50,648 bases of DNA, taken from positions 1-50,648 of the forward strand of contig JAIOYN010000004.1 in NCBI GenBank assembly GCA_021741065.1, in the 5' to 3' direction. Source of the stretch: Sphingomonadaceae bacterium. GTDB lineage: Bacteria; Pseudomonadota; Alphaproteobacteria; Sphingomonadales; Sphingomonadaceae. A program made the position numbers and the translations under genes. How positions within the stretch are numbered: position 1 is the first letter of the stretch; every line of letters begins with the position of its first letter. The notes below the pieces were generated by a model. It was not told the DNA's origin. It made no database searches and saw only the letters and a program-made list of their open reading frames with translations. Below, piece after piece: positions 27,952 to 45,910 of the stretch.

Positions 27952-28039
27952 TCTCGTTTCCCCCATCCCACTCGCCGTTGGTTTGGAACCTGCAAAATCC
28001 CTCTAATGAGTTTATTCGGTCACATTAACTAGTAATGCC

Positions 28040-28051
28040 GGTCATATGACC
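28040..28051. promoter_or_regulatory. Palindromic operator GGTCATATGACC
   Basis: This perfect 12-base palindrome lies between the divergent AraC and TetR genes. A 10-base partial copy (GGTCATATGA) recurs at 28907-28916 just after the TetR gene, and GGTCACATTA lies at 28019-28028. It is the best candidate site for the TetR protein. Confidence 0.55.
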
Positions 28052-28121
28052 TAATGGATTGTGTTAGACCAGAGCTATGGTTAGAGATGGACCACAGATT
28101 GCCGAAAACGGAGATTGGGTG

Positions 28122-30785: not shown

Positions 30786-31291
30786 TACGATTGACTTTTA
30801 TTGCGCTTCTACGCGCAGCGCAACTTTACGCCCTAGCTTGCTCACAATCAAACAAAGGGAGGCCCTGCTAGGGGTAGGACGCCGACGCAATATGTTCGGC
30901 CTAACGCGCCGCGGCTGCCATGATCCGATCATAAAATGAGCGAACAGATGCCGAGTTAGTTTTTTAGTGGGCTACTGCTTAAGTCCTCCACTGCAAGCCA
31001 ATAAAAGTCCTCGTGCTTAGAGTAGTTTTGATACGAATTTAATAGTCGCGGTCGAAAATTCATCGAAAACCTTCATAATCACGTCAGTACGGAGGGTGCG
31101 TGATTGAGCTGACGTTACCGCTCATCTCGTCGGCCGCGTTGGCCCGCCCAACGTTTTGCCGTTTTAGGCTAACTGTTTATCCAGTCAGGAACCTAGCTTG
31201 CTTCCTCTTGCCGATTATTCCGTTGTCGCCCAATTCCCCGTTGGCGGGGCTTGGAAGAACTGGTGTCGTTGCTGATGTTATTGAGGTGGCT
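30786..31291. other. Intergenic region upstream of the quinohaemoprotein gene
   Basis: These 506 bases hold no supported gene. A small inverted repeat ATGAT-CCG-ATCAT lies at 30920-30932. The frame of the next gene is open back to 31100, but that part shows no coding resemblance. Confidence 0.4.
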
Positions 31292-33364
31292 ATGCAATTT
31301 TTGTCTCCTGCTAGGTCTCTAATTCTATTTTTCGTTTTTTCGGTTCTTTTGGGTGGTTGCTCGCGCGGACCGACGGATACTGACCCAGCGAATTGGTGGC
31401 AGATAGGCAATAACGATTACGCTCAGCATTTCAGCAAGATCACTGACATAAATGCTCAGACAGTAAGCGGACTAAAGCTGAAGTGGTTTGTAGACATGCC
31501 AACCCTTGATGGCTTAGTTGGCGTTCCACTGGTGTCTGATGGAGTTGTCTATCAAAGTGGGCCGCTCGGAACCATTTACGCGAATGACGCAAGAACAGGC
31601 AAATTGCTTTGGACATTCGACGCGGAAATAAAGTTCCCGCAAGGTATAGTTCAATCATGGGGCTCGCGCCTTAGTAGGGGATTGGCCATTTGGGATGACA
31701 AGGTCATCCGTGCAACTGGCGATTGCCGTCTTATAGCTGTCCATCGCAAGACGGGTAAAAAGGTTTGGGAAGCGCAACAATGCGATCCAGCTGTTCACAC
31801 TATTACCGGTGCACCCCGGGTTGGAGATGGCATGGTTTTTATAGGCACTGCCAACGCTGATACTGGGGTCGGGCGTGGTCATGTTGATGCTTATGACGCG
31901 CATACGGGGAAGCATTTGTGGCGATTTTATACTGTGCCTGGCGATCCGGCGAAGGGTTTTGAAAACCCTGCAATGGAGATGGCTTCCAAGACGTGGGGTA
32001 AGGAATACTGGAAGAAGACAGGCGGGGGTAATGCTTGGGAAGCAATGACCTATGACCCACGCACTGGCTATCTTATTTTTGGTACGGACGGTTCGGTGCC
32101 TTTATCGCCACTCGAGCGGGGTGAGGGAGCTGGAGACGAGTTGTTTACAAATGCAATAGTCGCTGTGAATGCAAAGACCGGAGCGTATGTATGGCATTAT
32201 TCCACAACACCTGGCGATGGCTGGAACTATAGCGCGACGATGCCGATCGTTCTCGCCGACCTCAAAATCGATGGTAAAGATACACCAGTCGTGATGGAGG
32301 CGCCAAAGAATGGCTTCTTCTATGTAATGGATGCCCGGACAGGAAAGTTGGTAAACGAGCCCAAGCCTTTTGCCAAGGTAAACTGGGCGACCAGGATCGA
32401 CATGCGGACTGGGCGTCCCGTCATGACTGAGGAAGCTAAGTGGTGGCTCAAAGGGGATAAAGGCGCAGTTGTTTATCCTTATGGGCTGGGCGCGCACAAC
32501 TGGATGCCGATGGCCTTCAGCCCAGAAACGGGCCTAGTGTATATTCCAGTTTCCGAGGCATCGACCAGATACTGGAGTGATCCGCGGGTACTCATTGGTA
32601 AGGTAGATGTCGACAATTACCACAACCGCACAACTGGCGGCCTGTTCAAGGGGGTATTGGTTGCCTGGGACCCAGTCGCTCAAAAAGTCCGTTGGAAGCG
32701 CGACATTGGTGCACCCTACCAGGGGGGGACCTTGGTGACTGCTGGTAACGTAGTGTTTCAGGGTACCACGGAAGGGCAGTTCCACGCTTATCGGGCTGAC
32801 AATGGTAAGAAGTTGTGGTCATTCAACGCAGGCGGCGGCATCCTTGGCGCACCAAGTACGGTTCGCATTGATGGTGAGCAACTTGTACTTGTGCCAACGG
32901 GCTCGGGTACGACCTCTTCGGTCGGCTTCGCTCCATTGATTGGTGGAGGCGTTGGAGGGCCGCCGCGGTTGCTGGCTTTTTCCCTCAAGGGAGCGGCTGA
33001 ATTGCCTGTCACTGATTTGGCTCCTTTACCCTTGCCTAGGCCGATCGAGCCCCGTCCCAATCCGAAACTGGCGGCCGCTGGCAAGGTTGTTTGGGATGGT
33101 GCTGGGTGTGAACTGTGTCACGGATTGCAGGCAATTGGAGGCCCTGGTTCCGTACCTGATCTACGTCGGACAGAGTCTGCAAGATGGGCGCTTTTCTCTG
33201 AAATGGTTCGGGGAGGATATTTTACCAGTTCAGGTATGCCAAACTTCAGCGAGGTGGTTCAGGAAAGGGAGATTCCCGCACTGAAAGCTTATATTATGGA
33301 AAAGGCTTGGCAGGGCTATGAGCAACAGCAAAACAAAGGAAAGTTAGGCTCTACTGCTCGGTGA
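31292..33364 (+). CDS. PQQ-type quinohaemoprotein dehydrogenase, lipoprotein, atypical active site
   Basis: The 690-residue protein is an eight-bladed PQQ-type propeller with a C-terminal cytochrome c domain (CELCH at 606-610, Met ligand probably in SSGMPNF). The start at 31292 has GAGGTGG before it and yields a lipoprotein signal with lipobox LLGGC (Cys 23), so it should be anchored on the periplasmic side. Family form is clear (TNAIVAVNAKTGAYVWHY, EAPKNGFFYVMDARTG, VNWATRIDMRTGRP). However, the usual vicinal Cys-Cys is absent (GSRLSRG instead of CCDVVNRG), the catalytic WDYD region is WNYS (Asn 312, Ser 314), the metal-ligand Glu appears as Asp 190, and the GTGNG Asn is missing (GTDG, 264-267). 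These comparisons are from memory of methanol/ethanol dehydrogenases. Confidence 0.85.
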   Translation: MQFLSPARSLILFFVFSVLLGGCSRGPTDTDPANWWQIGNNDYAQHFSKITDINAQTVSGLKLKWFVDMPTLDGLVGVPLVSDGVVYQSGPLGTIYANDARTGKLLWTFDAEIKFPQGIVQSWGSRLSRGLAIWDDKVIRATGDCRLIAVHRKTGKKVWEAQQCDPAVHTITGAPRVGDGMVFIGTANADTGVGRGHVDAYDAHTGKHLWRFYTVPGDPAKGFENPAMEMASKTWGKEYWKKTGGGNAWEAMTYDPRTGYLIFGTDGSVPLSPLERGEGAGDELFTNAIVAVNAKTGAYVWHYSTTPGDGWNYSATMPIVLADLKIDGKDTPVVMEAPKNGFFYVMDARTGKLVNEPKPFAKVNWATRIDMRTGRPVMTEEAKWWLKGDKGAVVYPYGLGAHNWMPMAFSPETGLVYIPVSEASTRYWSDPRVLIGKVDVDNYHNRTTGGLFKGVLVAWDPVAQKVRWKRDIGAPYQGGTLVTAGNVVFQGTTEGQFHAYRADNGKKLWSFNAGGGILGAPSTVRIDGEQLVLVPTGSGTTSSVGFAPLIGGGVGGPPRLLAFSLKGAAELPVTDLAPLPLPRPIEPRPNPKLAAAGKVVWDGAGCELCHGLQAIGGPGSVPDLRRTESARWALFSEMVRGGYFTSSGMPNFSEVVQEREIPALKAYIMEKAWQGYEQQQNKGKLGSTAR

Positions 33365-34462
33365 GTTGGTGACGAAGAGACTGTCTATCGATGATCTTCC
33401 GGAAGCTGCCGTCGTTTCAGATGGCAGTTCCCCAAAAGACTCTCTGTAGTATTGAGCAAAGCGACTAAGATGCTCGAATCCGAACGATTCAGCTACTCGG
33501 TTGATAGACTTTTCTGCGCCGCCATTCAGTAACACGCGGCGTACGGCATGAAGTCGCAGCGAAAGCATGTACTGCATGGGTGAAACCCCGACGATTTGCT
33601 CGAAGCTGTAGCGCAATGTGCGGGGGCTGACCCGAACTGCTTGGCATATGCGAGACATCGGGAGCTTTTCACTAAGGTGAGCTTCCATGAAAGTTATCGC
33701 CTTGTCGACGATATATGCTCGTGTCGATGGGGCGGGCAGATTCAGCGGCGCAGATAATCCAGCCTTTATTACTTGCAGGAGTAGGCGGTGAATCCTCTCA
33801 ATGTTGTGGTCGCGCCACATTGTATCTTCCGACCGTGCATGTGCATCAGACGTGTGTTCGATTATGTCGAATATAGTTTCGGTAAAGTTTTGTACTATTT
33901 CCGGATCACTGATGCGCAGGCCTCTATGCAAGCAACCCTGATCAATCTCGCCGTTCGTCATTCGGTTTACATAATTCGCTAAGGAATCCAGATCTACCGT
34001 GATTGCTACCGCTTCAATTGGGCCAGTGCAGAAGGTTCGATGCAAATAGTTGATGGGGAATTTTAGGATCATGTTGGCGTCAAGCGGCCGACCATGACAG
34101 TAAGCCGCGCCTTCGGATGGGAGGATTACAACGAAACCAACCTTTCCTTCAGCGGGTGCGCCTTGATATTCAATTGGGTTGCACACTCGTTCAAGGACAA
34201 TTTGAAGAGAACCAAACTCTAGTTCTGTTATATGACCGGCAAACGGTTCCCGCTTAACCTGTTTGTATGCATGGGACCAACTGGTGGTCCCTCTACTGTG
34301 CGCCTCGCAGTTCCAGGTATCTATTGACCGATAAGAACGTTCAAAATCTAGTTCGAAAGACTCTAGTTTTGCCTGCGTGTTCACTGAAAGGCCTCGCGTG
34401 AAAGTTCTGCCAATAAAAATATAACAGGCGTTAGGTAATTTGCAACGGCTCATTGGGCTCAT
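33344..34462 (-). CDS. AraC-family regulator (EutR-like)
   Basis: The 372-residue protein has a C-terminal AraC DNA-binding domain (LPMSRICQAVRVSPRTLRYSF then NRVAESFGFEHLSRFAQYYRESFGELPSET) and an N-terminal sensing domain whose layout recalls EutR-type regulators. It converges on the quinohaemoprotein gene, the two 3' ends overlapping by 21 bases, and is divergent from the membrane-protein/amine-dehydrogenase block, which makes it the likely regulator of that block. An AAAGGGA site precedes ATG 34462. The effector is unknown; an amine would fit the neighbours. Confidence 0.87.
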   Translation of the reverse strand: MSPMSRCKLPNACYIFIGRTFTRGLSVNTQAKLESFELDFERSYRSIDTWNCEAHSRGTTSWSHAYKQVKREPFAGHITELEFGSLQIVLERVCNPIEYQGAPAEGKVGFVVILPSEGAAYCHGRPLDANMILKFPINYLHRTFCTGPIEAVAITVDLDSLANYVNRMTNGEIDQGCLHRGLRISDPEIVQNFTETIFDIIEHTSDAHARSEDTMWRDHNIERIHRLLLQVIKAGLSAPLNLPAPSTRAYIVDKAITFMEAHLSEKLPMSRICQAVRVSPRTLRYSFEQIVGVSPMQYMLSLRLHAVRRVLLNGGAEKSINRVAESFGFEHLSRFAQYYRESFGELPSETTAASGRSSIDSLFVTNSPSSRA

Positions 34463-34652
34463 TGGAAAGTCCCTTTCGTAGCGCGTTAGGCTAGACTGAA
34501 CTCTCTCCGCAAAGCCAATGATGTCGGTTTTAATCGCCGTGCAATTCGCGGCACGATTGAGTGATTAAATCGTACCGCGCTTCAAGGCGTTGTGCCTGTG
34601 TAGGCAAGTGCCGGCCTGCCGGAGCTTGTCTGAGCAATCGCTCTGTTATTGG

Positions 34653-34795
34653 CCGATTATAACCTGTTGGCATGTCGTTCAGCCAATATGTTATCATTTT
34701 AGGCGGTATTGAGCGAGGGGGCGCCAAATGCAAAAATTGTCTGAAAGTCTTGGGTGGACGCTTGGCTTGACACTCGCCTTAGCCGCCGCTGCAAC
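34653..34795 (+). repeat. Leader repeat C (upstream and start of the membrane-protein gene)
   Basis: This segment resembles 35789-35926. Both begin with CCGATT(A/C)TAACCTGTT, carry a GAGCGAGGGG/GAACGAAGGGG site, and have the start codon at almost equal distance (75 and 71 bases). The similarity runs about 65 bases into the coding sequence, giving QKLSESLGWTLGLTLAL here and RKLSASFGRTFGLALAL there. The middle of the leader is diverged. Confidence 0.65.
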
Positions 34796-35474
34796 TGCCG
34801 TTCGCGCTGCTGTAGGATTGACTGATCTTAAAACATTAATCCAGTTTGGCGCCTGTGTATTCTTCCTCTCAACATTGGTATTTGGGGCGTTCAATTTCTT
34901 CCAGAAGCGCAATCTAATCCTTTTTGCCGAGTGGGCACTGATGTCCGTCTCCTTGGCTAACCTGACCACATGGACTTTTACGCAGTGGCAATGGCAGTAT
35001 GATTTCGTATTGTACCTTGACGCGTTTTCTCGCGTTGCCGGTATGAACATGCTTGTTGTTTTTGGTTTTCTTGCTGTGACCCACAACTTCAGATCGTCAG
35101 TTTTGACTGATTTGTTCATCTTCTTAGGGATTGGTACTATCGCCGCGATCTTAATGTACGTCGATTATATGGAACCTATACGGCCATATGTCTTCTTCGC
35201 GGCCTTCTTCATGTTTGTGCCCTTTCTTATTATGCTTACATGGAAGCTGTTTTCCATCGGCAACAGGGCATTGGGCATCCACATGGCCATCACCACGCTA
35301 CTTCTCACCTACCTTCACAGCATTGCCGATTTCTATTCCATTCCAGGCGACGCCACTAATTTGTTCTACAATTTTGCGTTCATGGCGTTGACGATCTGGG
35401 CCTATGGATATCTTGTGATCTACTTCTCTTACGTCGCATTGGAACGACACAATGTCAGTTTAGGCCGGAACTGA
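34728..35474 (+). CDS. Unknown membrane protein, about seven helices
   Basis: The 248-residue protein is almost entirely hydrophobic with about seven predicted membrane segments (roughly residues 10-30, 38-58, 66-88, 100-115, 127-145, 154-172, 215-238). I recognise no family, motif or cofactor site; scattered His, Trp and Tyr residues (TWTFTQWQWQYDF) are notable. It shares its promoter-to-signal-sequence leader with the amine dehydrogenase heavy-chain gene that begins 385 bases downstream, so joint expression is likely. Roles in substrate transport or in TTQ maturation would fit the position but are guesses. Confidence 0.75.
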   Translation: MQKLSESLGWTLGLTLALAAAATAVRAAVGLTDLKTLIQFGACVFFLSTLVFGAFNFFQKRNLILFAEWALMSVSLANLTTWTFTQWQWQYDFVLYLDAFSRVAGMNMLVVFGFLAVTHNFRSSVLTDLFIFLGIGTIAAILMYVDYMEPIRPYVFFAAFFMFVPFLIMLTWKLFSIGNRALGIHMAITTLLLTYLHSIADFYSIPGDATNLFYNFAFMALTIWAYGYLVIYFSYVALERHNVSLGRN

Positions 35475-35788
35475 ATCCGACGCAGTTCAAGTTACATCTA
35501 TCGCCTTTATCGTTGCAAACCAGTTCCTGCAGTAGGTCGTTTTAAGCTGCAGCGCGATGACGGTTGCTATCAAAGGCTTTTCGCGGTGATCGGTGGTGTG
35601 TCGTGAAAACGCTGAAGCCGGATCGAACTCAATATGCCCAACTAAATCACAATTTATTGCCTTCAACCTTTGATCAGAGGCACTTCAAAAATAGCGTCCA
35701 GTTAGATGGGAATTATCACATCCCTCGTCCCGCCCTAGCAACTCTCAGCGGCCTTCAACTTCTATCCGATAAATGGCGAAATTGATGA
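35475..35788. other. Spacer between membrane protein and amine dehydrogenase operon
   Basis: These 314 bases contain no supported gene or clear terminator. Its right end leads into leader repeat D. Confidence 0.4.
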
Positions 35789-35926
35789 CCGATTCTAACC
35801 TGTTTGCAAGCAGCCGGGCCGCTAGGAATAGAGAAGCTGCACTGAACGAAGGGGAAAATATGCGGAAATTGTCTGCCAGCTTTGGGCGTACGTTTGGTTT
35901 GGCGCTCGCTTTAGGCGCAGCCGCTC
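35789..35926 (+). repeat. Leader repeat D (upstream and start of the heavy-chain gene)
   Basis: This is the partner of 34653-34795. It starts with CCGATTCTAACCTGTTTGCA, ends in the signal-peptide region of the heavy chain, and probably holds the promoter of the amine dehydrogenase operon. Confidence 0.65.
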
Positions 35927-37044
35927 ATGTCAACGCCCAAGCGCCGACAATAAGTGACACAGAAGTGATTGCAAGGGAATTGCCTGAGCAAAAGGCAGGC
36001 GAACGTTGGGTGTGGTCCGGAGATTTCGCCAGTGGTTATGCCCGCTCTGTTCTTGTCAATGCTGACACCGGCGAATATCTCGGCACAGTCGATACCGGCT
36101 GGTACGGTATCAAGCCCGACATTCCGAAGACTGGCGACGTTTTTTACAATCATGGTGTATTTATGGCACGCGGCTTTCGAGGGCAGCGTGTTGATGCCGT
36201 CGAGATTCTAAATCGTCATAGCTTGAATAAGGAAGGGGAGATTTTGGTTCCCCCTAAAATGGTTCGCGGCTGGCCAAATACCAATCATTCTGCATTAAGT
36301 GACGATGACCGCTTCCTCTTTCTACAATTTTTCACGCCGGCTTCGAGCATCGGTATAGTTGATCTTCAAGCGAGAAAATATGTCGGAGAGATAGAGACTG
36401 CAGGCTGCGCGCACATTATGGCGGCGGGTCCGCGTCGGTTCTTTTCGCTTTGTGGGGATGGATCTGCGCTTGCAGTCTCTATTGACGATCAAGGTCAGGA
36501 GGTGGCTCGCGAGAAGCTCCAAAAACTATTTAATCCTGACAAGGATCCTCTTCATGGAACTGGCGTCCGAAATGGCGATGACTGGTATTTTGTCACCGAA
36601 CTTGGTGATGTAAAGATAGTCGACGTCTCTGGCCAAATGTTACGGCAGAAGAAGGGGTGGAAGGCTGGTGAGCAGGCCAATGAAAGAGGCTGGGTGCCGG
36701 GAGAAATTCAGCAGAACTTAGCTTTCAATGGGCCAACAAATCAACTCTTCGTATTAATGGCGGATGCCAGTCTTGCTCCTAAAGGCGGAGGAACCGACTA
36801 TCATCGGCAGATGGGCACCGAGGTTTGGGTCTGGGATGCTGCAACGGCTACGCGAACTCGACGCATCAAACTCAAGGATCCACAAAATGCGATAGCCGTG
36901 AGCAACGACGAGCGTCCAAATCTTTACACGTCATCGACATGGGCTCCGAAACTAGATGTTATCGATCCCGAAAATGGTAGCGTTCTACGCTCAATTGTTG
37001 TCGGTTCAACGCCTACTTTGATCCAGCCAGTGACACGTCGATGA
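35860..37044 (+). CDS. mauB: TTQ amine dehydrogenase heavy (alpha) subunit
   Basis: The 394-residue protein has a signal peptide ending in AHVNAQA and a seven-bladed propeller body with the family segments LSDDDRFLFLQFFTPASSIGIVDL, GCAHIMAAGPRRFFSLCGDGS and DPQNAIAVSNDERP. It resembles methylamine and aromatic amine dehydrogenase heavy chains, which hold the TTQ-bearing light chain in the periplasm. The start at 35860 follows a GAAGGGGAA site; the frame is open upstream to 35773. It overlaps mauE by four bases. Whether the enzyme prefers methylamine, aromatic or other amines cannot be told from the heavy chain by eye. Confidence 0.87.
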   Translation: MRKLSASFGRTFGLALALGAAAHVNAQAPTISDTEVIARELPEQKAGERWVWSGDFASGYARSVLVNADTGEYLGTVDTGWYGIKPDIPKTGDVFYNHGVFMARGFRGQRVDAVEILNRHSLNKEGEILVPPKMVRGWPNTNHSALSDDDRFLFLQFFTPASSIGIVDLQARKYVGEIETAGCAHIMAAGPRRFFSLCGDGSALAVSIDDQGQEVAREKLQKLFNPDKDPLHGTGVRNGDDWYFVTELGDVKIVDVSGQMLRQKKGWKAGEQANERGWVPGEIQQNLAFNGPTNQLFVLMADASLAPKGGGTDYHRQMGTEVWVWDAATATRTRRIKLKDPQNAIAVSNDERPNLYTSSTWAPKLDVIDPENGSVLRSIVVGSTPTLIQPVTRR

Positions 37045-37589
37045 TCACCATAGAGCCTTCACTAGCTTGGGGATTGCGTATCGCAATGGTGGTCCTAATT
37101 GGTCTGGCTCTGCTTCATAAATTGCGTGCTCCATTAGAATTTAGGAGCGCGATGCAGGCATATTTAAGAAATACAGTATTGGATAAGGAAAGCATAGTGA
37201 GCTTCCTTAGCCTTACGGTGATCACTCTGGAGTTGGCGATCACCTTCTTGGTTGCTGTCGCTTGGTGGCCTCTCGTTGGGGCTGTTGCATTAGCAACGCT
37301 TTTCCTCATTTACGGGGTGGCAATGGCCGCAAATCTTTTGCGGGGTAATGCTCTTCTAGATTGCGGCTGCTCTTGGGGTGCGGATCGCCAACCAGCGACA
37401 TGGCATCGTGTCTGGGGTAACGCCGGACTGAGTGCGCTTTCCCTGCTGCTTGCAGTCCCCGTCGTTGAACGGCCTGCCAATAATATTGACCTCTTCGTTG
37501 CGGGCGCCTTCGCCGGTTTTGTAATCATTCTTTATGCGATCTCAAATCAGTTGATGGCAAATTCCGGACGTTTGGAGCAAAAACTATGA
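37041..37589 (+). CDS. mauE: MauE, membrane protein for amine dehydrogenase light-chain maturation
   Basis: The 182-residue protein has four membrane helices and the family motif DCGCSWG at residues 107-113. MauE and MauD are both needed for a stable light chain, MauE presumably passing reducing or oxidising equivalents for disulfide formation; this is known for methylamine dehydrogenase in Paracoccus. It overlaps mauB by ATGA and mauD likewise, so the three are translationally coupled. Confidence 0.9.
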   Translation: MITIEPSLAWGLRIAMVVLIGLALLHKLRAPLEFRSAMQAYLRNTVLDKESIVSFLSLTVITLELAITFLVAVAWWPLVGAVALATLFLIYGVAMAANLLRGNALLDCGCSWGADRQPATWHRVWGNAGLSALSLLLAVPVVERPANNIDLFVAGAFAGFVIILYAISNQLMANSGRLEQKL

Positions 37590-38224
37590 CCCAGACCTTA
37601 GCAGTAATCATCGCCCTGCAATGGATCGGACTCATCGGACTTGGGCTCGTTGTTCTCGGTCTCGCGCGACAAATCGGCGTTCTTCATAACAGGTTGGGTC
37701 CTGCCGGGGCACTAATGCTCAGTAAGGGTGTTAAGGTCGGCGAACCGAGCCCCAAGTTTCGGCTCCAATCGATAGAAGGCGGTGACGTTGTGCTGGGCGG
37801 GAGTGATGCTTCGGGGCAGTCTACGTTAGTCATGTTCGTTGCGCCTGACTGCCCAGTATGTGCAAGCCTGATCCCTACTATAAAGTCGATCGCCAAGGCT
37901 GAATCTGGGCGTACCCGTGTAATTTTTGCAAGTGATGGCGACCCCGAAAAGCACCGTCGTTATCGCGCTGAGAAGGATATTGAGGGAATGCCCTATGTTC
38001 TTTCTGGGCAGCTCGGCATGACTTATTCGATAGGGAAACTGCCTTATGCTGTGTTGATCGATCAAGACGGGATTATTGCCAGCCAAGGTCTCGTCAACAC
38101 CCGAGAACATATCGAAAGCCTGTTTGAGGCTCATCGCATGAAGATTGCCACAATCCAGGACTACCTGGCGTTGAAGAATGATGGTGAAGATCGTCGCGAC
38201 AATTCGGTATTACAAACATATTGA
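37586..38224 (+). CDS. mauD: MauD, thioredoxin-like disulfide factor
   Basis: The 212-residue protein has one N-terminal membrane anchor (residues 5-28) and a periplasmic thioredoxin-like domain with the redox motif CPVC at 89-92 (VMFVAPDCPVCASLIP) and the cis-Pro region GKLPYAVLID. It is thought to help form or isomerise the many disulfides of the light chain. The mauA gene begins 13 bases after its stop. Confidence 0.92.
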   Translation: MTQTLAVIIALQWIGLIGLGLVVLGLARQIGVLHNRLGPAGALMLSKGVKVGEPSPKFRLQSIEGGDVVLGGSDASGQSTLVMFVAPDCPVCASLIPTIKSIAKAESGRTRVIFASDGDPEKHRRYRAEKDIEGMPYVLSGQLGMTYSIGKLPYAVLIDQDGIIASQGLVNTREHIESLFEAHRMKIATIQDYLALKNDGEDRRDNSVLQTY

Positions 38225-38237
38225 GCGAGGGGTCATT

Positions 38238-38759
38238 ATGAACTGGTTTGACAAGCTTTTCCTTTCTTCCGCTTCGAAGCTAGCCGCCGAAACTTCGCGT
38301 CGTAGCTTCATTGCGAAGCTGGGTGTTGTCGCGGCAGGTGGCATGGTGCTTCCATTGCTTCCGGTCGCTCGTTTTGGCCAAGCGCACGCCGCAATTCCTG
38401 ATGGCGTGCCGGCTGGCTGGAATGATGATAAGACGTGCGATTATTGGGCCAACTGTGCAACCGATGGCTGGCTTTGCAGTTGTTGCGGTGGGACATCAAC
38501 AGATTGCCCGCCTGGATCGCAACCTTCACCCATTGCTTGGGTTGGTACGTGTTTAAACCCGGGCGACGGCAAGGCCTATGTCGTTCAGTATAACGATTGC
38601 TGTGGTCTATCGGCATGCGGCCGCTGTTTCTGCAACAGAAACGAAGGTGATACGCAAAAGTATCGGCCTCAAAAATCTAACAGCGTTACTTGGTGTTATG
38701 GTGGTGTGGATTCAACGTACCATTGTACAGTCCAAAGAGTTATTGCCCTAGCGGAATAG
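38238..38759 (+). CDS. mauA: TTQ amine dehydrogenase light (beta) subunit
   Basis: The 173-residue catalytic subunit has a long Tat leader (SRRSFIAKLG at 20-29, cleavage near HAA at 50-52). Trp 101 (PIAWVGTC) and Trp 152 (VTWCYGG) sit 51 apart, exactly as the two Trp residues that form TTQ in the Paracoccus enzyme, and the catalytic Asp (YNDCCG, Asp 120), Asp 76 (ATDGW) and Thr 164 (TYHCT) are at matching positions. All twelve standard cysteines are present plus two more, Cys 83 and Cys 127, which could form a seventh disulfide. The start at 38238 follows GAGCGAGGGG; upstream extension into mauD is not needed. Confidence 0.93.
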   Translation: MNWFDKLFLSSASKLAAETSRRSFIAKLGVVAAGGMVLPLLPVARFGQAHAAIPDGVPAGWNDDKTCDYWANCATDGWLCSCCGGTSTDCPPGSQPSPIAWVGTCLNPGDGKAYVVQYNDCCGLSACGRCFCNRNEGDTQKYRPQKSNSVTWCYGGVDSTYHCTVQRVIALAE

Positions 38760-38762
38760 TCT

Positions 38763-39206
38763 ATGTCTCGCCTTGTGTTCCCCTTTGCAGCTTTGATTAC
38801 CTGCGCTGTGCTTACAATCACAGCCGCGACAGGGGCGGCGCGACAACGCGACGATCCTGAGTTCCTTTATGAATTGCACTGTTCGGGATGCCACAAGCGT
38901 GACGGTTCAGGTCAAGGGACGTTCATCCCACGTTTGCAAGGCCAGGTCGCGCAGTTTTTGCATAGACCAGGTGGAAGAGAGTTCCTTATTCAAGTGCCGG
39001 GTGTTTCACAGTCGATGCTGAGCGACAAACAAGTAGCACAGGTGACGAATTGGGCTTTGGTTCGATTTGACAGCGAAAACATGCCTGTAAATTTTGAACC
39101 AATTACAGAAAAAGAAGTCGCTGCGCTGAGGCAGAAGCCACTTTCAGATGCCAGTAGGGTGCGCGCTAAAGTGCTAGCCGGGGCTGGCAAGCAGCATGAC
39201 CATTGA
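38763..39206 (+). CDS. Exported mono-haem c-type cytochrome
   Basis: The 147-residue protein has a signal peptide (about 1-26) and one haem-binding motif CSGCH in the mature N-terminus, followed by GQGTFIPRLQGQV. A C-terminal His-rich tail (GKQHDH) is present. It begins four bases after mauA. Amine dehydrogenase operons of the aromatic type carry a small cytochrome gene after the light chain, so this is a plausible electron acceptor or accessory factor. It is not a di-haem MauG: only one CxxCH is present. Confidence 0.85.
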   Translation: MSRLVFPFAALITCAVLTITAATGAARQRDDPEFLYELHCSGCHKRDGSGQGTFIPRLQGQVAQFLHRPGGREFLIQVPGVSQSMLSDKQVAQVTNWALVRFDSENMPVNFEPITEKEVAALRQKPLSDASRVRAKVLAGAGKQHDH

Positions 39207-39217
39207 AGGGAACTGAC

Positions 39218-39613
39218 ATGAATCGAGCTCTAGTATCAGCAGCAATTGTCGGAATTGCGGTAACGATCGGAATTGGCTTGCCAGAAACGCGAACCTTAGC
39301 GGCCTCGGCTAAAACAACACCTCCTCCTCCCGCGTTTCAGGCATGCGCGGCATGCCATACGATTTCAAATGATCGAGCAAATGGGATGGGACCGAACTTG
39401 CGTGGCATCTTTGGGCGACGTGCTGCTACCGTACAGGGATTCAATTATTCTAATGCGATGAAACGTTCTAAAATCATATGGAATGCAAGCGAAATCGATG
39501 CGTTCATCGCTAACCCGCGTGCCAAAGTGCCGGGTAATTCTATGGCCTATGTTGGTATGAAGAACGAAGCTCAACGTGCGCAAGTTGTCAGTTATCTTAA
39601 GTCACTAAAATGA
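39218..39613 (+). CDS. Class I cytochrome c (cytochrome c2-like)
   Basis: The 131-residue protein has a signal sequence, haem motif CAACH (FQACAACHTIS), the conserved GPNLRGIFGRRAA loop and the distal Met ligand in KVPGNSMAYVG, as in mitochondrial-type cytochrome c/c2. It would carry electrons in the periplasm from the quinoproteins to the terminal oxidase. ATG 39218 has AAGGGA before it; the TTG at 39203 is less likely. It is the last gene of the amine dehydrogenase operon, 11 bases behind the previous cytochrome. Confidence 0.9.
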   Translation: MNRALVSAAIVGIAVTIGIGLPETRTLAASAKTTPPPPAFQACAACHTISNDRANGMGPNLRGIFGRRAATVQGFNYSNAMKRSKIIWNASEIDAFIANPRAKVPGNSMAYVGMKNEAQRAQVVSYLKSLK

Positions 39614-39815
39614 AATAGTCAGAGATATAAAATTCAATAATATCGCCAAAAGAGTGTTTTTGTTTAAAAGAAATTAATCTCGGAAGATGCTATAAATGCT
39701 TTTTGTCTCCTTAAAAGTACCTGACTATTCGGTATTATTTAAACAAAAAATGGTTACGAAATCTACTAGCTAGGTCACGATCATCTATAATCTCGATAGT
39801 TGCGCTTAGCCGAAT

Positions 39816-39850
39816 GGGCGGTCGGTTTCAGGATTGATCGTCCCGCCCAA
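39816..39850. terminator. Hairpin between convergent cytochrome and crotonase genes
   Basis: A seven-base GC-rich stem TGGGCGG / CCGCCCA spans 39816-39850, ten bases from the crotonase stop. It could end transcription of the crotonase gene. Further left, a 12-base inverted repeat of TTTTTGTTTAAA (39657-39668 and 39738-39749) lies in a very AT-rich stretch after the cytochrome gene. Confidence 0.4.
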
Positions 39851-39860
39851 TCACCGACAA

Positions 39861-40649
39861 TCAGCTCGCCTTCACATTTTGACGTGCGCGTATTGCGGCC
39901 ACGGCCGCACGGTGTTCCTCAGTCTGGCTCGACATGCCTTCATAGGCGATGCCCGTATCCATGATGGTTCCTGCCAATTGCTTGAGACCGGTGTTTATTG
40001 TGGCCTTGCTCCAGCGGATTGCATTAGTTGCACCATTTGCAAGTCGGTTTGCCCAAGTATTGACCATGTCATCGAGTTCCGAGGCGGGAACGGCAAAGTT
40101 AATTAAGCCCATTTGCTGCGCTTCTCCAGCATTGATGAGGTCGCCGGTTAGCAGATACTGCTTTGCTCGGGCGTAGCCGATCAGTTGCGGCCAGATCAGT
40201 GCTCCTCCATCTCCTGTTACTAGGCCGACACGGACATGTGGGTCGCCTATGCGGGCACTATCGTTGGCAATGATGATATCGCAGAATAGGGCAAGTGTGG
40301 CGCCTAATCCCACGGCGTCGCCGTTCATTCGACAAATGATTGGTTTGTCGCAGTCGAGAATGCAGTTAATGATAGTCCGAGCCTCGCGTAGGACTGTGTT
40401 GAATGTGCTCGGATCGCGAATACACTCTTCCATGAATTCTAGATCGCCGCCAGCGCAGAACGCCTTGCCTGCACCTGTAAGGATAATAACGTCGCTTTCC
40501 TCATCGGCGGTTATTTCGGCAAATACCCGGGCAATTTCACGATGTGGTTCCCGTGCGATAGCGTTCAAGCTCTCAGGATTGTTGAGTGTTACAGTTAGAA
40601 TTCTGCCATTCCGCTTAAATTTTAGGAAGTTGTAACTGCTGAAGTCCAT
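39861..40649 (-). CDS. Crotonase-fold enoyl-CoA hydratase/isomerase, non-canonical active site
   Basis: The 262-residue protein is a crotonase (oxyanion motif AFCAGGDLEFM near 65-74, NGDAVGLGATLALFCD, GLVTGDGGALIWPQLIG). The two Glu residues of classical enoyl-CoA hydratase are replaced: Thr 118 in GLGATLA and His 138 in GDPHV. The GDPHV-GDGG form recurs in a subgroup of uncharacterised crotonases. It may therefore isomerise, hydrolyse or decarboxylate rather than hydrate. The start at ATG 40649 has AGGAGGG; the frame opens at 40691. It is divergent from the CoA-transferase gene. Confidence 0.87.
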   Translation of the reverse strand: MDFSSYNFLKFKRNGRILTVTLNNPESLNAIAREPHREIARVFAEITADEESDVIILTGAGKAFCAGGDLEFMEECIRDPSTFNTVLREARTIINCILDCDKPIICRMNGDAVGLGATLALFCDIIIANDSARIGDPHVRVGLVTGDGGALIWPQLIGYARAKQYLLTGDLINAGEAQQMGLINFAVPASELDDMVNTWANRLANGATNAIRWSKATINTGLKQLAGTIMDTGIAYEGMSSQTEEHRAAVAAIRARQNVKAS

Positions 40650-40816
40650 GTGATTTACCCTCCTGACCGTGCATCGGTATACTTGGCACATAAAAGTGAT
40701 AATGTGTTAGAAAATGATGTGAAATGTACCCTATATATAAGAATAAGATACATTCAAATGATTCGAATTTATGTTCGAAAATAGTTGTCTGATTTAAAGG
40801 AAAGAGGGGGAAATGC
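40650..40816. promoter_or_regulatory. Divergent promoter with two TTCGAA sites
   Basis: This AT-rich 167-base region separates the crotonase and CoA-transferase genes. TTCGAA occurs at 40762-40767 and 40774-40779, 12 bases apart, and a looser ATTCAAATGATTCGAAT lies across 40752-40768. These are plausible operator sites for the TetR protein encoded at 42134. Confidence 0.45.
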
Positions 40817-42043
40817 ATGGAGTATCCTGAAGCAAAGGGCGGAACAAAGGTCGCGCCGCTTCGCGGTGTTCGTGTGGTAGACCTCAGCCGCTTTGTCGCT
40901 AGCCCTTATTGCGCTTCTATCCTTGCGGATCTGGGGGCCGAGGTAATTCGGGTTGAGCCTGCCCTGGGCGGGGAAGACCGAGGCCTAGTTCCTGTCGGTG
41001 GAGGACCAGGCGGCGCTTTGTTTTTGCAGGTGAATCGAAATAAGAAATCGCTTGCGTTGGATATCCGGAAGCCTCGGGCACGTGCTTTGCTCGATCGGTT
41101 GATTGCTACTTGCGATGTCGTGGTGACAAATATGCCAGTGCAGACGCTGGCGCAGCAAAAGCTAAACTATACGGAGCTATGCAAGATAAAGCCGGACATC
41201 ATCGCTGCCAACACAACTGCATTCGGAACGCTAGGTTCTATTAGCATGCGCGGGGGCTTTGACGGGCTAGGGCAGGCGATGAGTGGCGCTGCTTATTTGG
41301 CCGGTTCAGAGGAAGGTCCGCGTCGAGCCGGTTGTTCGTATGTTGATTATGGCACTGGCCTAGCTCTTGCCGTTGGAGTGCTGGCGGCACTAATGCACCG
41401 CAATGCTACAGGCGAGGGGCAGGAACTCCATTCATCGCTGATGACGACGGCGCTAACCTTTACCAATGGCTGGCATATTGAAGCGGCCGTGGCGGGTATA
41501 GATCGTGCCCCCTTTGGCAATCTTAGCCCCAATTCAGCTCCTTCGGACATTTATCAAGCGGCGGACGGACATGTTGTCGTGCAGGCAATTGGTTCGCGTA
41601 TGTTTGCCAGTTGGGCTCATCTCGTTGGACGTCCTGACCTTTTGGAAGATCAACGTTTTACCTCAGATTCTGAGCGCGGACGGCATGGGACGTTTTTATC
41701 ATCGGTCATGCAAGAATGGATAGCTAATCAAACTGTTGCCGATGTGGTGCATTCACTTACTGAAAATGGCATACCTTGCGGACCGGTCTATTCGCCGAAG
41801 CAGCTGCTAGAAGATGAATTGGTATTAGAATCAGGTGTGTTTACACCTGTTGACGTTCCGGGGGTCTCAAACTCTGTTCCGCTCGTCCGGCCTATTGTTG
41901 AATTCGCTGGTTGTGACGTGTCAATTCGAGAGGCGGCTCCTTCCGTCGGCGCGCAAACGCGAGTTATACTTGCTGATCTTGGCCTTTCGGAAGAGGACAT
42001 CGAAGCATTGATCGACGCTCGCATTGCAGCGGTACCGGCTTGA
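40817..42043 (+). CDS. Family III CoA-transferase (CaiB/BaiF)
   Basis: The 408-residue protein has the family start LRGVRVVDLSRFVASPYCASILADLGAEVI split over residues 15-44, and the active-site Asp at 177 (SYVDYGTG) that forms the aspartyl-CoA anhydride. It moves CoA from an acyl-CoA product to a new acid, an ATP-free alternative to the ligase at 20222. A GAGGGGG site precedes ATG 40817. The TetR gene and a further acyl-CoA dehydrogenase follow in the same direction. Confidence 0.92.
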   Translation: MEYPEAKGGTKVAPLRGVRVVDLSRFVASPYCASILADLGAEVIRVEPALGGEDRGLVPVGGGPGGALFLQVNRNKKSLALDIRKPRARALLDRLIATCDVVVTNMPVQTLAQQKLNYTELCKIKPDIIAANTTAFGTLGSISMRGGFDGLGQAMSGAAYLAGSEEGPRRAGCSYVDYGTGLALAVGVLAALMHRNATGEGQELHSSLMTTALTFTNGWHIEAAVAGIDRAPFGNLSPNSAPSDIYQAADGHVVVQAIGSRMFASWAHLVGRPDLLEDQRFTSDSERGRHGTFLSSVMQEWIANQTVADVVHSLTENGIPCGPVYSPKQLLEDELVLESGVFTPVDVPGVSNSVPLVRPIVEFAGCDVSIREAAPSVGAQTRVILADLGLSEEDIEALIDARIAAVPA

Positions 42044-42133
42044 CCTCGGTGCGGACACTCGACTAGCCACAAGATGAGGCTCTTGACCAAGGGCCGGTCT
42101 TATCCGCCGCTTGATAGAGATAGGTAGGGCGCA

Positions 42134-42784
42134 ATGCCAACTAAATCGTTGCTCGACCGCAAGGCTGCCGGCTCAACAATCAAGAAGATGAAAGCCACCC
42201 TTTCGCGTGAACGCGTTTTGAAAACGGCGGCACAAGTTTTTGCGGAGAAGGGCTATGCGGGGACCACAATGCGTGTAGTCGCGGAGCGCGCAGGTCTGCA
42301 AGCAGGCAGTTTGTATTATCACTATCGCTCGAAGGAAGAGTTGATTGAAGCCGTTTTATCAATGGGCTTGCGAGGTGTAGCCGATTCGGTAAGGCTCGCT
42401 GTGGCTGCGGTGCCGGAAACCGCATCGGCCCGTGAACTTATAGACACTGCAATCATAGCTCATCTTACCAGTCTGCTCGAATACGGCGATTATGCCTTGG
42501 CTTCCCGACGGCTATTAGGGCAGGTTCCACCCCGCATCCGGCGCAAACATATCGATCTGCGCGACGAGTATGGTGATTTTTGGTTAGCGCTGCTTGAAAC
42601 GGCATTAGGGTCAGGTGAACTGCGCCCAGGGGTCGATCTCCATCTGGCGCGGGCATTCACGTTGGGTGCATTGAATTATGCATTAGAGTGGTATCGCCCT
42701 GGCGGAAAGCCATTGGAGGAGATTGGCAGTGAGTTTTCCCTGATGATCTGCGACGGCATTTTCTCCCGTCGGTTGTCCGAATGA
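42134..42784 (+). CDS. TetR-family transcriptional regulator
   Basis: The 216-residue protein has a standard TetR helix-turn-helix (RVLKTAAQVFAEKGYAGTTM, then RVVAERAGLQAGSLYYHYRS) and a C-terminal domain with the HxDL-DEYGDFW pattern common in regulators of acyl-CoA pathways (KstR2/FadR-like). It follows the CoA-transferase by 90 bases and precedes an acyl-CoA dehydrogenase, so it probably represses this end of the island in response to an acyl-CoA, which is inference. Confidence 0.87.
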   Translation: MPTKSLLDRKAAGSTIKKMKATLSRERVLKTAAQVFAEKGYAGTTMRVVAERAGLQAGSLYYHYRSKEELIEAVLSMGLRGVADSVRLAVAAVPETASARELIDTAIIAHLTSLLEYGDYALASRRLLGQVPPRIRRKHIDLRDEYGDFWLALLETALGSGELRPGVDLHLARAFTLGALNYALEWYRPGGKPLEEIGSEFSLMICDGIFSRRLSE

Positions 42785-42825
42785 CCTTTTCTGCCAATCG
42801 TCAATTAGCGCCATCACACAGATAG

Positions 42826-42878
42826 CCTGATCCGGCAATCAGGATCCCTTCCGATTGAATTTAATCTAACATTGATTA
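42826..42878. promoter_or_regulatory. Hairpin and inverted repeat upstream of the acyl-CoA dehydrogenase gene
   Basis: CCTGAT-CCGGCA-ATCAGG (42826-42843) forms a six-base stem, and TAATC-N7-GATTA (42862-42878) is a second inverted repeat. The first may end the TetR transcript; the second is a possible operator for the gene at 42917. Confidence 0.4.
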
Positions 42879-42916
42879 GGCCAGTTGCAGCTTTGGTCAT
42901 CAAGGAGGGCAATCCC

Positions 42917-44083
42917 ATGTGGTATAGCGACAAAGACGCTCATCGCGAGATCCAGTCGAGCATCGAGCGTATCTGCCAGAACTTTGGCGACGACTACTGG
43001 TTGCAAAAGGATCAGGAAGGCACATTTCCCCACGAATTCCATCGTGCAATTGCTGAAGGTGGCTGGTTAGGGATCGCGATGCCGGAAGAATACGGCGGGA
43101 GCGGTCTTGGCATCACGGAAGCGGCGATCATGATGCGCGGTATTTCGCAGTCAGGCGCTGGCATGTCGGGGGCATCTGCCGTTCACATGAACATCTTTGG
43201 TCTGCAACCTGTCGTTGTTTTTGGTACAGTCGAGCAGAAAGCGAGGATGCTTACTCCTCTCATTCAGGGAAAAGAAAAGGCATGTTTTGCGGTAACTGAG
43301 CCGGATGCAGGGTTGAATACCACACAGATTAAGACTCGGGCGGCACGTAATGGCGATAAATATAATATTACGGGACAGAAAATTTGGATCTCGACTGCCC
43401 AAGTGGCCGACCGAGCTTTGATTTTAGCGCGTACCAGCGAAACGGATGGCGGTCGCGGTAAGACTTCTGGTCTTAGTTTATTTTACACTCCGCTTGATCG
43501 CAGTCGGATCGAAATTCGTGAAATCCACAAAATGGGGCGTGCCGCTGTCGACTCAAACATGCTCTTTTTTGACGGGATGGAAGTTCCCGCCGAAGACCTG
43601 ATTGGGGAAGAAGGTGCAGGGTTCAAGCAGATCTTACATGGCCTGAATCCAGAGCGTATACTGATCGCATCCGAGGCTGTCGGCTTGGGGCATGCTGCCT
43701 TGCGTAAAGCCTGTGCTTATGCACGGGAGCGTATAGTATTTGATCACCGGATCGGTGAATATCAGTCCATCCAGCACCCGCTGGCTAAGTGTTGGATGAA
43801 CTTGGAAGCATCTTGGCTGATGGTCATGCGTGCAGCTGAGCTTTATGATGCGGGACTGGAATGTGGAGCAGAAGCTAATTCCGCCAAATATTTAGCTGCC
43901 GAAGCGGCATTTGCAGCATGCGAGGCTGCGATTTTGACTCACGGCGGCATGGGCTACTCGGCAGAATATCACGTCGAGCGCTATTTGCGCGAAAGCTGGA
44001 TTCCGCGCATCGCGCCAGTAAGCGCACAGATGATTATGAACTTTGTTAGCGAAAAGGTGCTAGATTTACCTAGATCTTATTGA
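42917..44083 (+). CDS. Acyl-CoA dehydrogenase (isovaleryl-type active site)
   Basis: The 388-residue protein has the FAD motifs CFAVTEPDAGLNTT and ITGQKIWISTA, and the catalytic Glu 246 in GLNPERILIASEAVG, the isovaleryl-CoA dehydrogenase position. The C-terminus HGGMGYSAEYHVERYLRES is standard. ATG 42917 has a strong AAGGAGGG site; the frame opens at 42872. It is the last catabolic gene before base composition and gene content change, so I place the right boundary of the island after it. Confidence 0.9.
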   Translation: MWYSDKDAHREIQSSIERICQNFGDDYWLQKDQEGTFPHEFHRAIAEGGWLGIAMPEEYGGSGLGITEAAIMMRGISQSGAGMSGASAVHMNIFGLQPVVVFGTVEQKARMLTPLIQGKEKACFAVTEPDAGLNTTQIKTRAARNGDKYNITGQKIWISTAQVADRALILARTSETDGGRGKTSGLSLFYTPLDRSRIEIREIHKMGRAAVDSNMLFFDGMEVPAEDLIGEEGAGFKQILHGLNPERILIASEAVGLGHAALRKACAYARERIVFDHRIGEYQSIQHPLAKCWMNLEASWLMVMRAAELYDAGLECGAEANSAKYLAAEAAFAACEAAILTHGGMGYSAEYHVERYLRESWIPRIAPVSAQMIMNFVSEKVLDLPRSY

Positions 44084-44274
44084 ACAGAACGATACCCAAA
44101 TTTCTTCGACGCAACATTGAAATCGCACCGAAGCGCAGAAACAATGCAATTGGATTGAAGCTTGAGTTGAAATGCTGATTTTCAGTCCAAGCTGCTGTCT
44201 CTTTTCTCTACTGTGTGCCGTTAGATAATTGTAAAATCTTATCGGATAGTTCGGCTGTAACAGGGGGTGCCGAC

Positions 44275-44571
44275 GTGCGTAATCTGGTTCTGATTAGCTT
44301 GCTGTTTTCAAGCATGTACGTTTCCCCTGTGGCAGCGCATCCAGGTGGGTTGGCTGCCGACGGCTGTCACAACGATAGGCGCAATGGCGGCCGGCATTGC
44401 CACCGCGGATCTTCACCACAAGTCCAGGCTCCGCAGCGAGCATTTGGTGGAGATGTATATTTCCGCAATTGCGCCGCAGCACGCGCGGCTGGTGCTGCGC
44501 CCATTAGGGCCGGGGAGCCGGGATATGGACGTCATCTGGACCGCGATGGGGATGGCAAGGCTTGCGAATAG
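44275..44571 (+). CDS. Exported Excalibur calcium-binding-domain protein
   Basis: From the GTG at 44275 (GGGGG upstream) the 98-residue product has a signal peptide ending in PVAAHPGG, a Cys/His segment DGCHNDRRNGGRHCHRG (YHYH-like) and a C-terminal Excalibur domain: VYFRNCAAARAAGAAP, then LDRDGDGKACE with the DxDxDGxxCE calcium-type loop. Such proteins are exported; their role is poorly known. The last 68 bases overlap the opposite-strand Tat protein gene. The ATG at 44215 would give a longer start without coding resemblance. Confidence 0.75.
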   Translation: MRNLVLISLLFSSMYVSPVAAHPGGLAADGCHNDRRNGGRHCHRGSSPQVQAPQRAFGGDVYFRNCAAARAAGAAPIRAGEPGYGRHLDRDGDGKACE

Positions 44572-45139
44572 CGCTACCCACTGCCGACCCCAGCTTTAAT
44601 TCCTCCAACCGCGCTTGAAGTAGCGTCAATGAAAATTGGTCATGCACCTCAACCCAACGTGCGCTGCTCGATGGGTTAGGATAGGACTGGAAGATCAACT
44701 CGCCTTCGCGCTTGCCGTTGCGGCCTGATGGAAAAATGTCGTGCTTTTCCAGAAATGCAAAAGCCTGCGCTTCGGGTGAACAATTATGCTCCCATTGGGT
44801 TTCCCAATCCCATTCTTTCATTGGTGCAAAAAGCTCAGCGTCGCTCCAGCCGGTCTCATCGCAAAAGTCGTCAATCTGCGCCTGCGTATTGAGGATGTAT
44901 CCGTGGAACCGAAGATTATCGATCAGCAATGGCGGCTCGGGGATTTCGAACTGGGGTTTGCCCAGGTGCAGGCGCCAATGGTCTTCAAATGGTTCGTAAT
45001 AGATGTTTGTGTAACCAATGCGCCCGGCGATTGTTGCGGAACTGGCGGTGTCGGCGGCAAGTGCGAGGGCTTCTTTTACAAAGGCAGCGGTGATTATGGA
45101 GCCAGCGCCAATTAAAAATGAACGTCGAGATACGGGCAT
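44504..45139 (-). CDS. Tat-exported protein of unknown function
   Basis: From ATG 45139 (AAGGAAG upstream) the 211-residue protein has a Tat signal (PVSRRSFLIGAGSIITAAF) and a mature part rich in Trp, Asp and Glu (FEDHWRLHLGKPQFE, MKEWDWETQWEHNC). I recognise no family. Its end overlaps the Excalibur gene on the other strand; the last 25 residues (from about GSAVGSAIRKPCHPHRGP) are the antisense of that domain and may be a read-on after loss of the original stop. Confidence 0.6.
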   Translation of the reverse strand: MPVSRRSFLIGAGSIITAAFVKEALALAADTASSATIAGRIGYTNIYYEPFEDHWRLHLGKPQFEIPEPPLLIDNLRFHGYILNTQAQIDDFCDETGWSDAELFAPMKEWDWETQWEHNCSPEAQAFAFLEKHDIFPSGRNGKREGELIFQSYPNPSSSARWVEVHDQFSLTLLQARLEELKLGSAVGSAIRKPCHPHRGPDDVHIPAPRP

Positions 45140-45466
45140 ATGTCTTCCTTTCGATATGCATCGAAAAGAAGCTCGACCTGATGTTGCGGAACGTTGCTGC
45201 GCTCGTTTGCTTGCGTGCTTCCGCCACATCTCGCTCTTGCGAATACCACCTTACCCGAGCAGGCAGGTTGGTGAAGGATGGAACCTTCTCTTGATGCTGG
45301 ATGAGATTAGCCGATCGTCCTGCTAAAGCAAATCGCAAATAATGCAGACACAGAGCCGCGGGCGCAGTCTAACTTCCTGGTGCGTGTCCAGCTAGCGCAT
45401 AACCTCGCTCGTTTTTGATGAGGTTGCGCCCGTGATTGGAATGGCGACTCGCGGCATGGTTGCGGC
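45140..45466. other. Spacer before the recombinase module
   Basis: No supported gene lies in these 327 bases. A partial inverted repeat pairs AACCTC (45401-45406) with GAGGTT (45420-45425), flanked by GCGC on both sides. It could be a terminator or part of an attachment region; no second copy was found in the window. Confidence 0.35.
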
Positions 45467-45826: not shown

Positions 45827-45910
45827 GTAAGTAAAGTAATGGGGTTAAAAATGTAGTATATGTACCCACGAATATCACCTTATTTCCGCTCCAGTCCTCA
45901 CGAGGTTTAG

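Follow-up and report, generated by a model that had tools for sequence, protein, structure and literature searches.

A mono-haem cytochrome as a candidate substitute for MauG in amine dehydrogenases with a tryptophan tryptophylquinone cofactor

We propose that in a large group of bacterial amine dehydrogenases that contain tryptophan tryptophylquinone (TTQ), a small mono-haem cytochrome takes the place of the di-haem enzyme MauG. The proposal concerns a 50,648-nucleotide stretch of DNA from a Sphingomonadaceae bacterium (assembly GCA_021741065.1, contig JAIOYN010000004.1, positions 1 to 50,648), which we call the window. Positions 35860-39613 hold a complete TTQ amine dehydrogenase operon, mauB-E-D-A plus the genes for two mono-haem cytochromes, Cyt1 and Cyt2, and mauG is absent from it. 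We think that, with a probability of about 50%, Cyt1, whose gene is adjacent to that of the light chain, replaces MauG in TTQ maturation of this dehydrogenase, which resembles aromatic amine dehydrogenase (AADH), and that Cyt2 or a paralogue carries the electrons. TTQ is a cofactor that the protein builds from its own tryptophans, and in Paracoccus, MauG finishes it. To our knowledge, MauG is the only established TTQ-finishing enzyme, and how AADH obtains its TTQ without a linked mauG has, as far as we know, been an open question since the aau cluster was sequenced. Our data single out one gene, Cyt1, as a candidate for the completion of TTQ without MauG. Genomes with no detected member of the MauG family make the question of how the cofactor is made testable, and the loss of the axial-ligand loop is a structural reason why Cyt1 could be catalytic. 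If the proposal is true, the textbook MauG route would be a branch that is confined to methylamine dehydrogenases (MADH).

The operon is of a kind that is already known. Its six genes (heavy chain, MauE, MauD, light chain, Cyt1, and Cyt2) are co-directional and overlap or nearly do so. The heavy chain matches PF06433 (105 bits, E = 4e-30; cut-off 21), and AADH chains are its best relatives among solved structures (E = 9e-33). The light chain matches PF02975 (147 bits, E = 3e-43; cut-off 25). The starts at 35860, the preferable start for the heavy chain, and at 38238 both have plausible ribosome-binding sites upstream and encode export leaders; judged by eye, the light-chain leader looks twin-arginine. 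Cyt1 and Cyt2 have a single CXXCH each. Both TTQ tryptophans are present in the light chain (W121 and W172 of the 193-amino-acid open reading frame, or ORF), along with two aspartates, D96 and D140. We take W121 and W172 to be W57 and W108 of MADH, and D96 and D140 to be its D32 and D76, which presumably matter for making TTQ. All four residues are invariant in the 109 light chains that we aligned, so they are the same whichever haem gene (Cyt1 or MauG) accompanies the light chain. An earlier note on this DNA had listed the six genes in this order, chosen the same start for the heavy chain, recognized both tryptophans, and reported neither mauG nor amicyanin, and we agree on each point: neither gene was found among the 40 window ORFs that were scanned with Pfam (some small ORFs fell outside the scan), and the genes 3' of the light chain encode cytochromes, not amicyanin.

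Judging from these matches, the operon is a member of the TTQ amine dehydrogenase superfamily, but it is not a MADH operon. Both chains score under the cut-offs of the MADH equivalogs (TIGR02658, heavy chain, 124.6 bits versus 454.45; TIGR02659, light chain, 163.6 bits versus 196.85). Over the aligned parts, the light chain is 56% identical to AADH (from Alcaligenes faecalis, with structure 2agl among the PDB matches) and 46% identical to MADH, and its aligned domain has 14 cysteines, as in AADH. In a tree of 109 light chains (14 Caballeronia rows were removed beforehand), the five MauG-linked light chains and the reference MADH form one clade (support 100/99), and a branch with support 100/99 places the window light chain on the side of A. 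faecalis AADH. Seven more rows, of which five have Cyt1 and two have neither gene, fall on the MADH side of this branch without belonging to the MauG clade. The earlier note had said that a light chain inside the methylamine clade would make this an ordinary mau locus, but forcing it into the MADH clade was rejected (approximately unbiased test, p = 0.00126). The tree and the equivalog scores rule out an ordinary mau locus. The window light chain is not nested in the A. faecalis AADH group either, although forcing it there was not rejected (p = 0.247). It has the longest end branch in the tree (0.96) and its placement is unsure, so we describe it as a divergent enzyme on the AADH side and not as AADH proper. 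It also has an extra pair of cysteines, C103 and C147. Each position is a cysteine in 90 of 94 rows of the Cyt1 group (including the AADH reference) and in 1 of 6 rows of the MauG group. A larger amine as the substrate, as the earlier note inferred, would fit with the AADH-like light chain.

The absence of mauG from the locus is real, as the earlier note had it, but it is not odd for this kind of operon: across the 121 light chains that we examined, it is usual on the AADH side. The note had suggested that a distant mauG or another oxidant completes TTQ, and had proposed a search of the whole genome. The draft genome, which includes the window, comprises 1.9 Mb and is 84% complete; no CCP_MauG match in it was over the cut-off (best E = 0.29). 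Because the draft is just 84% complete, we put the question to relatives. From at least 555 relatives, we took the best 80 loci, ranked by likeness to the window; 50 of these entered the test and 49 were searched, and with 24 others this gave 73 genomes with a TTQ light chain. (One genome, G089/G516, was seemingly counted twice, as the light chains of L058 and L143 are identical and the two genomes share a match at the same place.) At E ≤ 1e-3, 25 of the 73 genomes (11/49 and 14/24) had no match to PF03150 (CCP_MauG), 23 had none to TIGR03791, and 22 had none to either model, which is how we define MauG-negative. Among the 22 are three genomes that are each one contig and 100% complete (G095, G105, and G395) and the isolates Novosphingobium mathurense (L052) and N. 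meiothermophilum (L073). No genome of the 73 reached the MauG equivalog cut-off (443.85 bits), but this cut-off is too strict to be used alone, as the MauG-like gene next to the MADH-type light chain of genome G333 scores just 251.6 bits.

In Paracoccus, TTQ is made by a linked MauG; that each of these genomes relies instead on a MauG-family enzyme encoded away from the operon seems very improbable to us. The 22 MauG-negative genomes count against this as a general answer, and no MauG-like gene lies in the locus of any of the 107 light chains with Cyt1 (see below). CCP_MauG family proteins (E ≤ 1e-3) are found in 48 of the 73 genomes, and some score up to 315 bits against the MauG model; these may be ordinary peroxidases. 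Also, the window's own genome is incomplete, so the lack of MauG there is weak evidence. Of the two suggestions in the earlier note, a distant mauG is thus disfavoured in general (22/73 genomes), and another oxidant may complete TTQ.

Cyt1 accompanies the AADH-side light chains, and Cyt1 and MauG do not occur beside the same light chain. Our set of 121 light chains (from 120 loci, 80 of them taken by the similarity ranking above) includes some that are not independent of one another, and Cyt1 was called in these loci at a limit of 80 bits. Just downstream of 107 light chains is a Cyt1-type gene, with no MauG-like gene in the locus; five light chains have MauG and no Cyt1, and all five are in the MADH clade; nine have neither gene nearby; and none has both. 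(ORFs with two or more CXXCH motifs near the light chains of L027 and L160 have no MauG match.) Annotated plasmid regions show the same division: four of MADH type contain mauG or "cytochrome c peroxidase" along with mauJ and genes annotated as napG and napH, and in five of AADH type, the light chain is followed by one or two small cytochromes. As a side observation, the two systems coexist in G333 (L161 and L162), where a MauG-like di-haem gene goes with a light chain of MADH type and a separate operon of the Cyt1 type has its own haem gene.

To lessen the bias from ranking by similarity, we made two even draws of genomes, which overlap. In the draw by class (389 genomes), a light chain scored over the cut-off in 13 genomes (16 places), and strong Cyt1 matches (above 120 bits) were in the same 13 genomes (13 places; the lowest was 126.6 bits and the next match was 45.1). 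In the draw by phylum (396 genomes), strong light chains were in 12 genomes (14 places), and strong Cyt1 matches (above 95 bits) were in the same 12 genomes (14 places; lowest 95.9, next 45.1). All 14 of these Cyt1/light-chain pairs are adjacent, on the same strand, and less than 0.9 kb apart. We set aside weak matches to PF02975 in G214 (22 bits, under the cut-off) and, from the phylum draw, in G705 (24.5 bits, or 25.1 with its neighbours, at a cut-off of 25). The window genome is in both draws and the Cyt1 profile (A2) includes the window Cyt1, so its own match counts for nothing; leaving it out gives 12 of 12 genomes by class and 11 of 11 by phylum. The draws may also include genomes whose loci went into the profile.

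Of the nine light chains with neither gene nearby, two are at loci that stop at a contig edge (L057, which breaks off inside a Cyt1 gene, and L076). L155 and L156 hold second copies of the light chain, in genomes that also have a Cyt1 operon (G271 and G441). L045 has a divergent short-loop cytochrome that is below our limit (37 bits). The genomes of the other four (L015, L061, L074, and L079) have a full Cyt1 elsewhere, at 141-176 bits. The one in the genome of L015 adjoins a second complete operon (L239). The one in the genome of L074 follows mauE-mauD, with no mauB or mauA within that 11.6-kb stretch (L236). The genomes of L061 and L079 match neither MauG model and have kept Cyt1 although it is unlinked. 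By eye, we also noticed that a gene similar to histone deacetylases or acetylpolyamine amidohydrolases adjoins the unlinked Cyt1 in these two genomes (L237 and L238), and that such a gene lies about 3.5 kb upstream of Cyt1 in L236.

By sequence comparison, Cyt1 is a relative of cytochrome c552 without the roughly 18 residues that hold the axial methionine. The closest solved relative of the Cyt1 profile is cytochrome c552 from Thermus thermophilus (structures 1c52, 1dt1, and 1qyz; E = 1e-23), which it matches in two stretches. Between them, at the axial methionine of c552 (which we take to be Met69), c552 has 21 residues and the Cyt1 profile has 3. The fold is the same: an AF2 model of Cyt1 (mean pLDDT 90) matches Thermus c552 with Z = 12.0-12.6, a root-mean-square deviation of 2.5-2.6 Å, and 107-110 of 129-131 residues aligned at 35-36% identity. 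Pfam sees general cytochrome c domains alone in the members of the family (PF00034 in 32 of 52 and PF13442 in 8 of 52), not CCP_MauG. No NCBIfam model for this family was matched by the members, and 1 of the 52 weakly matches a c551 model.

The 165 ORFs of the c552 family near light chains are of two forms. The 57 long-loop paralogues all have 32-34 residues in the loop, methionine included. The loop has exactly 15 residues in 105 of the 108 short forms, which are of the Cyt1 type; the exceptions are the form in L045, with 14 residues, and two fragments that lie at contig ends. At 55 loci there is one long and one short form, at one locus there is one long and two short forms, and 51 loci have the short form alone. 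(L076, at a contig end, has the long form alone.) In a tree of 128 of these ORFs (37 were removed, either as a surplus from Caballeronia and Burkholderia or as short fragments), a single branch still separates the short forms from the long forms when the loop columns are removed (support 99/98). As the long form is shared with Thermus c552, we infer that the change was a loss of the loop. No sixth haem ligand is conserved in the Cyt1 family: apart from the residues of CXXCH, it has no invariant methionine, histidine, lysine, tyrosine, or cysteine.

Cyt2 is an ordinary class I cytochrome c. It aligns with mitochondrial-type cytochromes c (E = 5e-23) over a region that covers the methionine, and scores 90 bits against the Cyt550 model, under its cut-off of 240. 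It is a probable electron acceptor for the dehydrogenase.

If Cyt1 replaces MauG, the operon could work as follows. Its product would be an AADH-type TTQ amine dehydrogenase in the periplasm, with a light chain that leaves the cytoplasm by the twin-arginine (Tat) route. MauE is a redox factor in light-chain folding, and MauE and MauD would set the disulfides of the light chain. The two active-site tryptophans would then become TTQ, with Cyt1 taking part instead of di-haem MauG. The loss of the loop may leave the haem of Cyt1 open and reactive, and peroxide or oxygen might drive this open haem (via a ferryl species, with peroxide) to oxidize the precursor tryptophans. The mature enzyme would convert a primary amine to an aldehyde and ammonia, and the electrons would pass to an ordinary cytochrome, which might be Cyt2 in the window and the methionine-bearing c552 paralogue in many relatives. 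More broadly, and with somewhat less than even odds, we suggest that most TTQ enzymes do without MauG, that a one-haem protein that derives from a c552 carrier by one old loss of the loop finishes TTQ in them, and that the MauG route is a branch of MADH only.

The main alternative is that Cyt1 serves the mature dehydrogenase as its dedicated electron acceptor, the distal face of the Cyt1 haem being capped by the partner protein or by another ligand, and that TTQ is made by another factor or by the light chain itself. We find this possible but less probable than a role in maturation. Cyt1 is next to the light chain and co-inherited with it, which would suit a dedicated acceptor as well, and it is kin to a family of electron carriers. 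No c552-type paralogue accompanies it in 51 of 108 loci. Yet a carrier is already present in 55 of 108 loci (the methionine-bearing paralogue), and in the window (the normal Cyt2), and Cyt1 is without the loop that defines a carrier. Cyt1 is also absent from the five loci of the MauG clade, and in L236 it follows mauE-mauD without mauB or mauA. We favour maturation because of the methionine-bearing carrier alongside, the mauE-mauD-Cyt1 cluster, and the mutual exclusion with MauG.

Besides the CCP_MauG family proteins described above, several observations weigh against the replacement of MauG by Cyt1. The short loop of the window Cyt1 itself holds a methionine (M85), as do the short loops of 39 of the 108 short forms in some position. 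The positions that come closest to an invariant ligand are 114, a tyrosine in 71 of 96 sequences (and an isoleucine in the window), and 36, a tyrosine in 60 of 96. A ligand other than the axial methionine is therefore possible. In L061 and L079, mauE-mauD is within a few kb of the light chain and Cyt1 is not, so Cyt1 is not always with the maturation genes; this arrangement also favours an acceptor. No mauE or mauD was found in the examined stretch around 23 of the 121 light chains (such as L008, L014, L016, and L019), and 19 of these 23 loci still have Cyt1. L155 and L156 have neither Cyt1 nor MauG nearby. Finally, MauG has two haems, and a multi-electron oxidation by a one-haem protein is unproven.

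A further alternative is that TTQ arises through an unrecognized factor or by self-processing with a free oxidant, and that the role of Cyt1 lies elsewhere, for example in controlling peroxide or supplying haem. In PMC7876137, a study of another tryptophylquinone enzyme, the substrate of MauG is said to be a light chain with one hydroxyl already on the tryptophan; autocatalysis is the presumed source of this first hydroxylation in MADH, which would favour self-processing. We noticed no other gene with similar linkage to the light chain, although we did not make a full census of the neighbouring families, and the mauE-mauD-Cyt1 cluster points to maturation. We consider this alternative improbable.

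The nearest known system would be the aau cluster of A. faecalis, which reportedly consists of aauBEDA and a gene for a mono-haem cytochrome, orf-2, without mauG. The absence of mauG is said to have been noted already for this cluster (reportedly described in Chistoserdov 2001 and Hothi 2005). The reported order, B-E-D-A and then a mono-haem cytochrome gene, is like that of the window, which has the mitochondrial-type Cyt2 in addition. Active AADH has reportedly been made in P. denitrificans from aauBEDA and orf-2; as this host is said to have its own mauG, the maturation of AADH stayed open. The mau locus of Paracoccus denitrificans (L188) has the mauB-E-D-A core and the TTQ residues in common with the window, but it also has mauF, amicyanin, mauJ, mauG, and genes annotated as napG and napH; it has no Cyt1 by the light chain, and the window light chain falls outside its MADH clade. 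MauG and Cyt1 are both haem-c proteins that are linked to a TTQ light chain, and we propose the same job for them, but MauG has two haems and belongs to another family.

For Burkholderia, PMC6405878 describes a MauG-like enzyme of unknown function and no conserved mau operon. Searching the open literature by titles and the starts of abstracts (subscription papers are mostly outside of it), we found no paper on the maturation of AADH or the role of its cytochrome. Nor did we find there the pairing of a TTQ light chain with a loop-deleted cytochrome, or the genomes without detected MauG.

Table 1. Features of the window, with the evidence for each assignment.
Feature	Coordinates	Strand	Evidence
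Heavy chain (mauB/aauB-like), 394 amino acids including leader	35860..37044	+	PF06433, TIGR02658, AADH structures
MauE-like membrane protein	37041..37589	+	PF07291, 61.5 bits, E = 1e-16
MauD thioredoxin-like factor	37586..38224	+	TIGR02661, 211.6 bits, above cut-off of 188.6
TTQ light chain (mauA/aauA-like), twin-arginine leader	38238..38759	+	PF02975, alignment, tree
Cyt1, mono-haem, c552 family, without axial-methionine loop; candidate TTQ maturation factor	38763..39206	+	Linkage, loop deletion
Cyt2, ordinary class I cytochrome c with PGxxM motif; probable electron acceptor	39218..39613	+	Matches to mitochondrial-type cytochromes c
AraC-family regulator, divergent; possible regulator of the operon	33344..34462	-	PF12833, 73 bits
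Apparently acquired island that carries the operon	13863..50648	.	Left edge near 13862; reaches contig end on the right
Three head-to-tail genes, the first two tyrosine recombinases, the third with no Pfam match	45911..49457	+	PF00589 in the first two

The operon apparently lies on an acquired island of at least 36 kb, if the stretch is one piece. In stretches of five congeners, the match to the window (86-91% DNA identity where they overlap) ends at 13819-13862, the light chain was found in 0 of 44 congeners, and the G+C content falls from 55.6% before this point to 51.3% over 13862-45900; together these suggest acquisition. The part shared with congeners, up to 13.86 kb, contains glucosamine and arginine genes, hslO, an acyl-CoA dehydrogenase, a carotenoid-oxygenase-like gene, and an aldehyde dehydrogenase (10757-12334), which is thus outside of the island. 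A mis-binned contig is ruled out by argF, which is up to 95% identical to that of congeners, and by the match of the five congeners.

The earlier note had also placed the operon within an acyl-CoA catabolic island. Genes for CoA enzymes are indeed nearby, but their tie to the operon is one of proximity only, and no scanned neighbour names a substrate: when ten proteins were compared to NCBIfam, the CoA ligase alone passed a cut-off among the matches listed, and this was for a broad subfamily.

Several other genes are near the operon. The AraC-family regulator scores 102 bits against the AndR model, under its cut-off of 350. There is also a PQQ-type (pyrroloquinoline quinone) alcohol dehydrogenase (31100-33364) with a cytochrome-like C-terminal stretch; at 469.8 bits, it is just below the cut-off of 480 for the methanol/ethanol family model. 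At the right end of the island, 45911-50647 holds the overlapping gene trio and then a serine recombinase at the contig end, and it resembles a recombinase-trio element. Upstream of the heavy chain is an unnamed ORF (34728-35474) with no Pfam match. Its leader and that of the heavy chain are almost alike (MQKLSESLGWTLGLTLALAAAA and MRKLSASFGRTFGLALALGAAA, respectively), and the likeness extends to the DNA over about 90 bp, as in a duplicated start region.

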